The notes under the pieces were generated by a model that searched no databases, was not told the DNA's origin, and was given only the letters and a program-made list of their open reading frames with translations. Shown here piece after piece: positions 38,798-59,500 of a stretch of DNA of 64,000 nucleotides. This DNA comes from Sipunculus nudus. Its lineage: Eukaryota; Annelida; Sipuncula; Golfingiida; Sipunculidae. The number at the start of each line of letters is the position of its first letter. Position 1 is the first letter of the stretch. The translations under genes were made by a program, and so were the position numbers. The stretch spans positions 21,568,676 through 21,632,675 of the forward strand of contig CM049311.1 in assembly GCA_026874595.1 (NCBI GenBank), given 5' to 3'.

Positions 38798-40172
38798 GTA
38801 TCCCGAAAAAATTAACCCCCCCCTCCCATCTTCAGCAGCATTTACTGCCACTTGGCAAGCGGCTATGGTTTCTTCCATTTATCAACTTGAGAAACAATAT
38901 TTTTCACCAAATATGGGGGCCAAAATGATGAATAACTCTTGAGGAAAGAGCATTAATTCGTTTTACGGATATGGGAAGGTAGGTGGCGCCACCTGTCTGG
39001 TTTACGAGAAAATTTTCAAAGATGGATGGACATGCCAGGTTTAAGACCCATACCTTGAACCACTCCAAAGATATGAGAAATTTTCACCCAAAGCACATGT
39101 ACAGATGGCCGCCACGGCAAAATTATTGCAGATGGTGCAACCAGTCTTAAGTACAATATGGAGGAGTCCAAGATCCATGGATATGCACAATTTCAGGCCA
39201 ATAGGGCAAATTACTCCTGAGAAAAGCATTAATTGATTTAACGGAAACGGGAAGGTAGGTGGCGCCAACTGTTTGGTTTACGAGAAAACCTTCCAAGATA
39301 GATAGACATGACAGATTTAAGACCCATAACTTGAACCACTCCAGAGATATGAGCAATTTTCACCCAAAGCAAATGTACAGATTGACGTCACGCCAAAACG
39401 ATTGCAGATGGCGCCACCAGTCTTGAGTACAAGATGGAGGAGTCCAAGATCTAGGGATATGCACATTTTCAGGCCAATAGGGCAAATCACTCCTCAGAAA
39501 AGGGAATTAATTTATTTGACAAAAACGGGAAGGTAGTGGCCCCAACTGTCTGGTTTACTAGAAAACTTTCCTAGATGGATGGACTTGCTAAATTTCAGAC
39601 CAATACCTTGAACCACTCCGGTGATAAGAGTTATTTTCAACGAAAGCACACGTACGGAAGGACGCCACACAATTACGATTGCAGATAGCGCCTCCAGTCT
39701 TGAGTACAAGATGGAGGTATCCAAGACCAATGGACATGCACAATTTCGGCCCAATCTTTCCATCAGTTTTAGACTTATAGTGCTCACAGTACTGTTAAGT
39801 GGCAATGATAGGGTATTGGCGCGTAAACAAGAAAAGGACAGAAGGTGACGCCACCTGTCTGTCACAGAAACTAAAGCTATCCAAAATCTTCGATCAATTT
39901 GATTTCTGGACCAATCTTTGCATTCCTTATTGAGGTATTTATAATTTTGTCTAATTTTCACCATAAATGGCAGTATTCAAGGTCAAGGTCACTCTCCTGT
40001 TTCAGGTCATAAACCCATTTTAAAAAAGCTTCGTTCTCTCACCCATATCTATGAACATGTCAAGTTTGGTAAAGATTCATAAAATATTTTTTGAGTTGTC
40101 GCGTCTAAACGAAATTTCTGCGGCGGAGCGACCGTGCTTAAACCATAGTATCCCGACTTTGTCTGGGGATAC
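38798..40172 (+). mobile_element. Satellite-bearing composite element, member A
   Basis: The left end GTATCCC at 38798 is followed by a C-run and CACTTGGCAAGCGGCTATGG, matching the left arm of member B at 54994. The interior holds three tandem units of about 277 bp, marked by GGGAAGGTAG at 38973, 39249 and 39527, plus a diverged remainder. Each unit carries GGTGGCGCCAMC-like and ATATGAG...TTTTCACCCAAAGCA blocks. The right arm CTGCGGCGGAGCGACCGT... ends in a hairpin, GTATCCC (40148-40154) and GGGATAC (40166-40172), with TGTCTGGGGATAC as terminus. It is non-coding; the 150-codon minus frame 39512-39964 is a satellite shadow. Comparable in architecture to satellite-carrying Helitron-like non-autonomous elements of bivalves, but identity is not established. 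Confidence 0.75.
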
Positions 40173-41284
40173 AATTAGAAGGGGACCTTATTTCAATTTG
40201 ATCATATCCATGCCAGGGATTAAATCTAAGAATAAATAAAATTTCGTTAAAATATCTAAGCTACGGTTCTTTAAACATGTGCATCTGGCATTTGTTGCAT
40301 TACTATTGATTTGTCAATTTCTATGGAACAAACTAACAGTATGCATTCTGTAAGATGAAGTAAATATCACATCAACAAATCAGAACCCCGATATGTGAAT
40401 GAAATTCCCATGTATATAGCTGAGTTATGTTTAGGAGGTTTATTCCCACGAGTTAGTTTGTGGCTTCCATGATTAAAGTGTTCCTTGAGTTCCGATCAGA
40501 ATGCAATTCAGTAAAAACAGTCCCGACATGGAAGGCACTAATGGAGGTCTTGTGTACTTAGAAGTTTACAGATTATAAAGCTCTTTCATAAATGAAGTTG
40601 TTTTCGTAAAGTAACGTGTACAACACTATAACATTGACGCGTGAATGAGAATGTAATTAAATAAAAAATGGAGTTAGACTCCTCCGTTTTAAAGTTTTAA
40701 TTTATCAAGTATGATATTACGTTGAAGCTTTTAAAGAACTTCAACAGAAACTAATTTGCATCAGGTTCAAATGCTATATAATTAGCTTATAAATGGGGCG
40801 TGGAAGTATTTTGTGATGGTTTGTAATTACTAAATAGGGGACAAGTTTTCATCTCCAGCCAGGTAATTGAGATGGAAATTGTAGAGGGCTATTGTTACTT
40901 ATTAGTGATACGTAAATTACAGAGTAATAAGGGTATTAATCATCTAAATATTGTTCCCGAGTCAGATGGAAATAAGAGCACCGCAGTTTGGAAAGGCGCT
41001 GAAATAAAAATAAGTGTATCTTGAGGAATTCCTGTAATACGAGAGTACGATAATTGACGAAGAAGTGCTCTAAATTTACAAAAGCTTCAAGAATTTCCAG
41101 CCCATCCCATCTCAGATTACGGTTTATTTTACTATTTATACAGAAAGAGCCACACCCTCCTATTATATATTCTAGCATGGTGGTATATATTTGCATGGAA
41201 GCATATTTTAAGGTAAATATGTTTTATACAACGTGTTTGAATAATAATTTGGACTTAATTTTTATTGTTTAATCCATTTCAATG
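40173..41284. other. non-coding
   Basis: A/T-rich sequence between two repeats. Open frames 40936-41196 (minus) and 41054-41272 (plus) overlap on opposite strands and lack motifs. Nothing supported. Confidence 0.4.
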
Positions 41285-56500: not shown

Positions 56501-59500
56501 GTCACTCTCCTAGCATAGGTCATGACCCCATTTTAGATAGGCTTCGTTCCCTTATCTATATCTATACAAATGTAAAGTTTGAAAAAGATCAGTGAAATAT
56601 TTTTTGAGTTACCTCGCTCACAAGGTTTTTCTGCGGCAGCGGCGGTGGGACCGTTGTGAAACCATAGTATCCCGACTTTGTCTGGGGATACAATAATAAC
56701 TAATAAGATCAATGTTCAACATATCGTTCTGAATTCCAATTTGTAACAAGGTTAGGATAGGATAATATGTTTCATAAGACTGACAAGACATATTTCTTGC
56801 TTTCTGTATTTATTTAATGCAGAGTATACTATTTTTCTATGACCTTTTATTTTTCCCTGTTAATAATTACTGAAATAACAGTGCCCTGTACTTTGTGATT
56901 ATAAGAGGAAAATATTTGAGTCCGCTTAAGAATGATATTACAGCTGCCACTCTAAGCAGATTAAAACAAGGTCACCACAAAAAGGAGCATCCCCTCGCAA
57001 AGGGCATAATTAGAATGGGAGTATTACACGGAGTGAAAATAAGGAGGGCAACTCTCTGGCCTTGACCTTTACTCCTGTGACCTCAAACTAAATAGAGTTC
57101 TTCATCCATGGGTGGGTGAGCCATAAGAGCAAGATGACACTGACAAGTGTTGGTCACACGGTTTGGCCTAAAATGGGTCCACAAGCTTTTTCAAAGAAAT
57201 GGGCCCTGTGGCCGTAATCTTTGACCCTGTGACCTCAAAACTGATAGGGGTCTTCATCCATGGGTGAGCCATCTGTCTAAGATGAAAGGTTTTGGTCAAA
57301 AGGTTTGGCTTAAAATGGGTCCAAAAGCTTTTCCAGGAAGTGGGTCCTTTGGCCGTGACCTTTGACCCTTTCACCTCAAAATCGATAGGGTTCTTCATGT
57401 TTGTGTGGGTGAGCCATATGTGCAAGTTGAAAGGTTTTGGTCAAATGGTTTGGCTTGAAATCGATCCACAACCCAGTTCCGGACAGACAGAAGGATGGAT
57501 GAACAGACTGGTGGATGGACAGGAGGACACACAAACAGAGGCGTTACTATATCCCTTTCTCAACTCCTCTGTGAGGTGATAACAAAATGCAGCATACTGG
57601 TGAAAATTATGAAAATTGAAAAGTGTTCTCACATAATATCCTGTTTCTCTTTTTCGTCTACATCAGTGATGCGAAATGATACATATTGGTTCATCTGTAA
57701 GGAGTCTGGCAGTGGTTGGTTGACTGTAGGAAACGTCAGAGTGCTTCCCTGCAAATGAAGATAAAACAGAGAGATTTATAACAAGAAAATATAGACTAGT
57801 AAGATGCCGCAGATGAACACCACCAGGATCCTGATCAAACACTGGTGTGTGCTACATGAGTGCATGAAGAATGAATGCATTCCCAGAATGTGTCTCAATT
57901 CACAAACTTGATGACTGTATCACAGGTCAGCACTGTCCACAAAAACAAAGGTGCCCTCTCCTACCAATAAATGGCTTTTGCTCTTGGCCAGGATAAACAA
58001 AATGCCCAAATTACATCAGGATTAAACCTAAATTTAAAATACTTATTAACATACCAGGTATGTTTATTTTTTATGAAATATGATAATTTCTCTTTAAAAA
58101 GGATGTAGAATGCGCTAACATTTCAACATAAAACAATTTGCTTAATCCTATATACAAGCAGTAATAAGCTTGCACTTGGCAAAATCAGTGACTCAAAGCC
58201 TTAACATAGGGGAAGCACCCCAATGTGCAACTTCACAAGTCAAGATGTTTCAAGCTTCAAAAAATTCTCTCTTTACATGTGTTTCTTTTTCAAGTTTCTG
58301 CTCTTTGTTCGGGAGTTTTTATGCATGAGCAAGATTTGACCTCTGGTCATGCAGTCTTGTTATGGTACACAGACACACATGGACTGTTTACTCCCACACA
58401 ATACCATAACAAGATATGAAACATTGCATTACAGATATTAAGTGTGAGGGGATGGTTCTGCTTTTCAGCCAAAACGAACTGATGGTTAGATAATTCACAT
58501 ATTATTGCAAATGTTTATGTACCTTCAATGGATGATTCTCTAGGTTAACACTAACCCTTCCCAAAAGTTCATTCGAATTCTATCATAACTTCTGAGTGAG
58601 TTTTTTTACAGACAAACCTACCAAATAACTCCAAAAAAACAAAAGAAGGGTGGGTCATGGGTGAAACTGTTTAACCACACCTGTCACAGAACTAATGGCA
58701 ACAGCAGATATATGTTGTGACACAAAGTTACCTAATTTGGACCTAATCAAAGGAATTAGTTAACCATCATCTAAAATGAAAGTGTTAAAACTTTATGAAA
58801 ATAAGCTAACATAGCTGGCTTCCCCTTCACCTTACTTGCACATATACATGTCAAGAGATCAATTTTGTTGTAAAATTTAGTGCAGATAGCTACAGTCAAT
58901 TCTGGTTTAATTAACTAGGAATGATGTGATGGAACTGTCAAGATTTTCAGTTAAGGCATAGCTATGCCTAGGTATCCAATGTGGCTGCAAAGCTTCGCAG
59001 CTACATTTGAGATCAAGTTATTCTTACTGGTTTGCGAAATATTATCATTTAACTGCCATCTGATTGGCTAATTGCCATATGCTAAAACCAGTTGACTGGC
59101 CTTTCTCATTATTTCTTTATTCCTGAAGCTACTCTGATCTACTTACATGTATTGAGTGTATTATATTTTAAGACAATTATTATGATATGTACCGCATCAT
59201 GAGACAATGTTTTGTGACAGCCCTTCCCTAAACACTACTGACTGTATTTGATGTTTTAGTGGACCACACATTCATATGTAAAACTCACCTGTTTAATGTC
59301 CATAATAGTGTAGTTCTCTCCTCTCCGCTGCCCTGATGGGTGGGTATACACCCCTCTCTTCACAAAAGGCATGGCTTTAGCACTGGAACAGAATAAATAT
59401 ATTAAGTTATTTCATAGCACTTTAGTCAATTAGTTACCTAGGAGTGGATTCTACAGAGAAATTGTGAAGAAGAACATGGATAATGATGTAAATGATCAGA

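Follow-up and report, generated by a model that had tools for sequence, protein, structure and literature searches.

HINEs, short non-autonomous Helentrons that need a helper to move, are a class of rolling-circle transposons in which satellite arrays are known from oysters (PMC7492417), and the portions of the oyster and mite papers drawn on here (PMC7492417, PMC4067079) describe them with one order: a 5' subterminal inverted repeat (subTIR), an inverted repeat (IR) complementary to it, a microsatellite, an array, a 3' subTIR and a palindrome. We analysed a window, i.e. a whole stretch of 64,000 nucleotides, of the genome of Sipunculus nudus (NCBI GenBank assembly GCA_026874595.1, contig CM049311.1, positions 21,568,676 to 21,632,675 of the forward strand; positions below are those of the window), which contains three elements with tandem arrays, M1, M2 and M3. 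The arrays of M1 and M2 consist of monomers that we call G, that of M3 of monomers that we call T; between array and 5' end, M1 and M3 hold further units, G' and T'. M1 to M3 are probably HINEs lying on the minus strand, and the M1 and M3 interiors are probably made of resident units of two kinds, of which lineages amplified or kept one.

The likeness to Cg_HINE of Crassostrea gigas (PMC7492417), as far as the consulted portions of that paper go, is one of layout, the sequences being uncompared: subTIR, IR and microsatellite, a central satellite-like array, then a 3' subTIR and a palindrome. Both also insert at TT or T-rich sites with no duplication of the target, and both include elements with two arrays and related frames that differ in their repeats. 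On the other hand, the 3' end reads CTAG-TT here, CGG forms the microsatellite near the 5' end, and the alternative arrays adjoin a T'-G' core kept in every M1-type frame read, whereas group 2 of the oyster was interpreted as independent incorporation. HINE-Mo/DINE-1 (PMC4067079, in part) compares in the same manner, again with sequences uncompared: the 5' subTIR lies 2–4 nt from the end, 8–35 nt separate the 3' palindrome from the 3' end, each side has two T or more, and the helper is a Rep/helicase/endonuclease protein, presumed in our case; but the distance between 3' subTIR and 3' end, 33–34 nt here, falls slightly outside the range of about 38–60 nt in the mite, and the satellite cores are here dimeric. 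The pearl, DTC84 and MgE elements of bivalves, in which fixed flanks enclose short arrays of at most six ~160-bp repeats (PMC7492417, PMC5139131, in part), are similar by architecture only. Proto-Helentron-Pi has the same 5' TT and 3' CTAG but, from what we drew on in PMC4067079, is autonomous, has the structure of a typical Helitron and inserts between A and T.

Three elements and their ends

The elements and their terminal features are as follows, all on the minus strand.

38774 to 40174: M1, HINE with a G-type array; arms homologous to M3, 5' end the same as in M3
40148 to 40172: 5' subTIR of M1 (minus-strand GTATCCCCAGACA) and complementary IR GTCGGGATAC; hairpin z -2.1
45476 to 46935: M2, HINE of a second family with subTIR GTATCCGCCAAAA and a G-type array; 20 genome copies, L054-L073
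45489 to 45507: 3' palindrome of M2; GTAGTCG-ACAAG-CGACTAC in sister copies, one wobble or mismatch in the window copy
45510 to 45522: 3' subTIR of M2, from M2-type copies
46908 to 46935: 5' IR of M2 (46908-46920) together with a decayed 5' subTIR reaching to the TT end, by comparison with sister copies
54961 to 56693: M3, HINE with a T-type array; arms homologous to M1 and to M3-type genome copies
54975 to 54991: 3' palindrome of M3, TGGCGCC-TGC-GGTGCCA, then ...TCTAGTT
54994 to 55006: 3' subTIR of M3, 13 bp, perfect complement of the 5' subTIR
56667 to 56691: 5' subTIR (56679-56691) and IR (56667-56676) of M3

A sequence-only reading of the window had proposed three members with a common right arm. 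The three members are real, and M1 and M3 are indeed alike in both arms: by blastn the right arms (39753-40175 and 56266-56694) are 75% identical over 436 columns (E 3e-83), the left arms (38825-38885 and 55039-55099, 61 bp) 85% identical, and the rightmost 31 nt, ATAGTATCCCGACTTTGTCTGGGGATACAAT, are the same, two matches being obtained in 0 of 100 shuffles. M2 does not belong to this right arm: it shares with M3 a right end of only ~41 nt (78%, blastn) and the exact string TTGAAACTAGA, 27 and 26 nt past the subTIR. With M1, it is the satellite that is alike (64-73% by blastn, same orientation), the arms not being in common.

Read on the minus strand, M3 starts with ATTG-TATCCCCAGACA, AA, GTCGGGATAC, CGG-type repeats, the units and the array, and finishes with TGTCTGGGGATAC, TGGCGCC-TGC-GGTGCCA and AAGAAATG-TCTAGTT. 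In both M1 and M3 the IR GTCGGGATAC comes after a short A spacer with the CGG-type repeats next. Sister copies of M2 carry GTATCCGCCAAAA at both ends and, as IR, GTTTTGCGGATAC, complementary to the 5' subTIR; the 5' copy is decayed in the window M2, which has GTATTTGTTTTAAG in place of GTATCCGCCAAAAC or its close variants. The left start is AACTAG at 45476 (M2) and 54961 (M3) and the variant AAGTAG at 38774 (M1), whose 3' end is partly decayed (AAGTAGA for AACTAGA). The left borders initially proposed were thus 24–34 nt short, the element starting, in M2-type copies, at AACTAG upstream of the palindrome, and strand and ends have to be reversed: what had been seen as a terminal hairpin on the right is the 5' end. 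This agrees with the ends described for HINEs, which have subTIRs of 11–15 bp with the 5' one 2–4 nt from the end, a complementary IR after a short spacer and before the microsatellite, and, as in the M1, M2 and M3 families, a palindrome 8–35 nt from the 3' end, after the 3' subTIR.

For copies elsewhere we searched the host assembly (1.43 Gb, 153 contigs). The M2 left end had 2392 first-look candidates, the M3 5' end 1849 and the M1 5' end 1591, the last two sets possibly overlapping; the 40 best were scored per search, which makes the samples the best matches to each query and not a random draw. Window copies included, 21 of 40 M2-type, 12 of 40 M3-type and 20 of 40 M1-type places were read. 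The 20 genome copies of M2 were chosen by their left end; all of them show AA-CTAG at the left, and 17/17 show ATAC-AA at the right, a count leaving out L059, L062 and L068, which have no match to the right-end pattern. TT precedes G at the 5' end. A right-arm match, partial in some copies, is found in 19 of the 20 (exception L059), which speaks against arms that occur independently of each other in the genome. The M3-family palindrome is perfect in L078 and has one mismatch in L075 and L080; that of the M1 family is perfect in L098 and L104, imperfect in L105, L112 and L113 and decayed in the window M1; that of the M2 family is lost in L056.

Several other readings of these ends were discarded. 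The right hairpin is not a 3' terminal Helitron hairpin, the right side being made of the 5' subTIR and its complementary IR. The direct GTATCC repeats are rejected as a target duplication and also as a recombinase site, IR and 3' subTIR being direct copies in a HINE. A canonical Helitron, with 5' TC, 3' CTRR and insertion between A and T, does not agree with a 5' end of TTGTATCC and a 3' CTAG followed by TT in 20/20.

Insertion sites

The flanking bases, where a target-site duplication had been thought worth looking for, were compared for 23 insertions (17 M2-type, 3 M3-type and the 3 window elements). Apart from AA, none of them shares at least four bases across the element, while 2 share three and 4 share two. 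This is as in mismatched flanks, of which 506 pairs were examined: at least four bases are shared in 2.6%, at least three in 8.5% and at least two in 23%. When the joined flanks were compared with the retrieved genome loci, 4 of the 23 (L066, L070, the window M2 and L063) had a paralogue spanning the junction, the match of L063 being weak and made of AT-repeat sequence. In the alignments viewed (7 of 10 junction-spanning matches) the length of the empty site differs from that of the joined flanks by between -1 and +3 bases, as would be the case if nothing is duplicated on insertion. The elements are therefore inserted at TT or A/T-rich sites without target duplication of at least 4 bases, the last one or two A/T bases belonging either to the host or to the element; the same ambiguity over terminal A/T bases is described for mite HINEs in the part of PMC4067079 used here.

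M3 does have the 13-bp perfect inverted repeat first noticed, and together with the right-end hairpin it could evoke an unrelated family of transposons with terminal inverted repeats, similar to miniature inverted-repeat transposable elements (MITEs) and bearing a hairpin at one end. This is most improbable: the 3' end is further out than the repeat, past the palindrome, TT stands at both ends, and none of the 23 insertions has a duplication of 4 bases or more. Nor do repeat and hairpin set the family apart, as had been supposed; they are the 5' subTIR and complementary IR, which the consulted portions of PMC4067079 and PMC7492417 describe alike for HINEs.

Interiors of the M1- and M3-type frames

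The interiors contain the following, on the minus strand.

38982 to 39809: G-type array of M1, six monomers alternating at 149/127 bp, with a GGTGGCGCCACC-like motif
39844 to 40124: units G' (39844-39938) and T' (39954-40124) of M1, between array and 5' end
45628 to 46740: G-type array of M2, four a/b dimers
55152 to 56133: T-type array of M3, TGACCTTGACCTTTGACC, A/B dimers of 289 bp
56146 to 56637: core units of M3, T' (56146-56302), G' (56363-56466) and T' (56467-56637)

Tandem Repeats Finder gives periods of 276 bp (38931-39755), 279 bp (45620-46707) and 289/143 bp (55151-56046), which bears out that the members enclose different arrays. Most G monomers contain a palindrome near GGTGGCGCCACC (38982-39695, 45628-46622) and the T monomers of M3 carry AGGTCA-type half sites; we take these to resemble the motifs of insulator proteins and of nuclear receptors, respectively.

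The idea that the frame holds the seeds of both satellites predates the reading of further M1- and M3-type copies. It came with the M3 arm between array and 5' end, which matches the M2 G profile with 14.4 bits and the M3 T profile with 10.4 bits, each with 0 of 400 shuffles as good. Among the M3-type copies, T array and T' are present in 12/12 and G' in 11/12 (not L080), and none has a G array in the frame. The G' profile consensus of the 11 copies has kept intact GGTGGCGCCACC, the 12-bp G palindrome. With E-values computed as for 1 Mb, the G profile matches the G' consensus at 2.5e-5 and the T profile matches the two T' consensuses at 0.009 and 0.023, on the same strand; the reversed G' and T' consensuses gave no match to the profiles. 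In M3 one T' unit is plainly a copy of the other, with E about 1e-22. From these comparisons, the link between G and G' appears good and that between T and T' suggestive. A related observation was made in oyster Helitron-type elements, whose flanks contain fragmented monomers (PMC5139131, in part).

All 20 M1-type frames, the window copy included, have at least one G' and at least one T', and 16 have a repeated T'-G' heterodimer, with at least two of each unit (not L095, L096, L109 and L114); L104 has three G' and four T' at a step of 319–334 bp. Beyond this core the copies differ. G monomers are added in nine (L095, L098 with a single partial one, L099, L103, L106, L107, L108, L111, L113), a T array stands in the frame of one, L096, heterodimer units are alone in nine (L097, L100, L101, L102, L104, L105, L110, L112, L114) and the interior of L109 is interrupted. 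Eight copies lack the left end by query (L095, where it is decayed, L096, L099, L102, L108, L109, L110, L111) and may have incomplete interiors; two of these, L102 and L110, are heterodimer-only copies, and another of that kind, L097, has ~400 bp unassigned. L111 and L109 were rejected as composite interiors, both holding nested elements: in L111 the G array contains the end of a T-array element, and in L109 another HINE-like end directly precedes G'.

T-type monomers are also seen near other ends. In the window, M4 (57057-57590) is a T-type array beside M3, about 73% like that of M3, which ends in a microsatellite-like stretch and TTACTATATCCC; M5 (54504-54606, minus strand) is a HINE-like 5' end whose hairpin pairs 13 of 14 positions (AGCTCAGATGACT/AGTCAGCTGAGCT) and adjoins a ACGGACGG microsatellite. 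The M5 end type is frequent in the retrieved loci (15 matches, counting the one in the window and some palindromes read twice). In L067 (2524-3290) and L109 (21-1590), T-type arrays lie beside M5- or M4-type ends, which suggests that T monomers occur in more than one frame.

Origin of the alternative arrays

In a tree of 232 columns the split between eight M1-type and 12 M3-type frames has full support. Support is poor for the forks within the M1-type clade, where copies with G, with T and with heterodimers are intermingled. One clade of frames thus holds three interior states, the data giving no order of events. The frame of L096 is M1-type, with an identity of 0.88–0.92 to the other seven M1-type frames and of 0.81–0.86 to M3.

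The sequence-only reading saw a mobile frame with expandable satellites, closest in architecture to the pearl-type Helitron-like elements of oysters, and ends, palindromes, flanks and empty sites do fit HINEs; that the frame captures its satellites, one of the two options given there, is the less likely for M1 and M3. Capture of different ready-made satellites by HINE frames in separate events is the view published for related oyster frames with unrelated repeats (Cg_HINE group 2, in the consulted part of PMC7492417). It is in agreement with T-type monomers lying near several end types (the M3 frame, the M4 end, M5-type ends) and with the weak similarity between T' and T. Nevertheless G' and T' are next to the 5' end in 20/20 M1-type frames, and the G palindrome is intact in the G' consensus of a family whose arrays are of T type. 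We consider capture unlikely for M1 and M3, because every M1-type frame that was read keeps units of the G' and T' kinds, at least one of them satellite-related; the data favour the sorting and amplification of resident units, the ancestral state being left aside.

Recombination or template switching might also have swapped interiors among related HINEs, giving arms and arrays separate histories. M1, with arms like M3 and a satellite like M2, would fit this, and nested insertions do occur (L111, L109). But the T monomers of L096 have an identity of 0.84–0.86 to those of M3, close to the 0.81–0.86 of the frames, as expected without exchange, and T arrays are found in all 12 M3-type copies and a G array in the frame of none. 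Exchange seems to us rather doubtful.

Amplification or retention of resident units, our preferred reading, has points against it. The M4 T profile fails to find the M3 arm, 32 of 400 shuffles scoring equally well, and the M3 T profile fails with the M1 arm (12 of 400). When the T consensus is searched with the T' profiles instead, same-strand matches are either absent or at E 4.8. G is distant in sequence from G', and T from T', so that amplification, if any, would be old, and convergence or an old capture of satellites may account for the resemblances. As the T array of L096 is about as diverged from M3 as the frames are, it may predate the M1/M3 split, a T array being then present in the common ancestor of both types of frames. 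T-type arrays beside M4- and M5-type ends might reflect exchange between frames. Finally, an autonomous element with M1–M5 ends was not found in the nine Helentron loci retrieved (L086-L094, eight places), most of which are too short to hold ends.

Arrays of the M2 family

In the M2 family the a and b monomers alternate in 19 of 21 copies, L056 and L070 having one a-a step each, and array size ranges from about 0.5 to 5.5 dimers, near-full monomers being counted. In 12 clean copies, edge units compared between copies have an identity of 0.93 (a) and 0.91 (b), internal units of 0.906 (a) and 0.869 (b) between copies and of 0.904 and 0.870 within, and edge against internal units of 0.81 (a) and 0.77 (b). 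These identities mean that the edges are fixed and that the internal dimers interchange: arrays of different copies differ by entire dimers of 278 bp, the edge units being constant. Copy-specific homogenisation is rejected, internal units being equally alike within and between the 12 copies.

Transposition and candidate helpers

The mechanism of transposition, the identity of the helper and the direction of interior changes are proposals. A Helentron protein with Rep, helicase and endonuclease activities would recognise a 5' end made of TT, subTIR and IR and a 3' end made of subTIR, palindrome, CTAG and TT. According to the general model for the class, one strand would be copied by rolling circle into A/T-rich sites, the target not being duplicated and the palindrome marking the 3' end. 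The interior is more than neutral filler: in the M1/M3 frame, units of two kinds are stacked, T'-G' heterodimers near the 5' end being followed in some copies by an array of either G or T monomers. One of the two kinds would have been amplified or retained per lineage (G in M1, but T in M3 and in L096), and none where heterodimers stand alone. Array length would change in whole units, by slippage or unequal exchange.

Judging from its open frames, the host genome encodes uninterrupted Helentron proteins. PF14214 (Helitron_like_N) has 143 matches there, seven of them listed in open frames of more than 2000 aa, and none in 14 control genomes; the 2229-aa frame of L094 has the domain set described for Helentrons, with OTU, Helitron_like_N, PIF1 helicase and Exo_endo_phos. 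The sole end-like match in the flanks of L086-L094 is of 14 nt (E 0.04). No helper is assigned to the elements, since the retrieved Helentron flanks are without M1–M5 ends.

Other repeats in the window

A repeat with a spacing of 662–687 bp lies upstream of M5 (53247-54457). A MITE-like element at 41880-42151 has inverted ends of 28 nt (93%) and a long G run. On the minus strand, 11089-15251 is a non-LTR (long terminal repeat) retrotransposon with a 990-aa frame for reverse transcriptase and endonuclease; a frame upstream has a GDSL-lipase match below the curated cut-off. Rfam at gathering scores and a tRNA scan gave none, and 55900-56700 had no blastn match to phage records. Pattern scans of viral contigs and genome contigs returned no match or chance-like ones, and the 42 loci from the viral-contig scans had zero blastn matches to the elements.

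Implications for satellite origin

Among the titles and opening lines of abstracts that our searches of open-licence papers listed, none describes this family, or a resident heterodimer as the source of alternative HINE satellites. We advance tentatively, as a real possibility, that the resident T'-G' heterodimer gave rise to satellites that seem unrelated: amplification of one half-unit would suffice, and no capture would be needed. The frame would then be a satellite library of its own, and new satellites could arise within a rolling-circle transposon. In the oyster work, as far as the portions of PMC7492417 drawn on here go, captured and home-grown Helentron satellites stand as two open scenarios. 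As one frame exists in S. nudus in heterodimer-only, G-array and T-array copies, the question of their origin becomes testable within a single genome.

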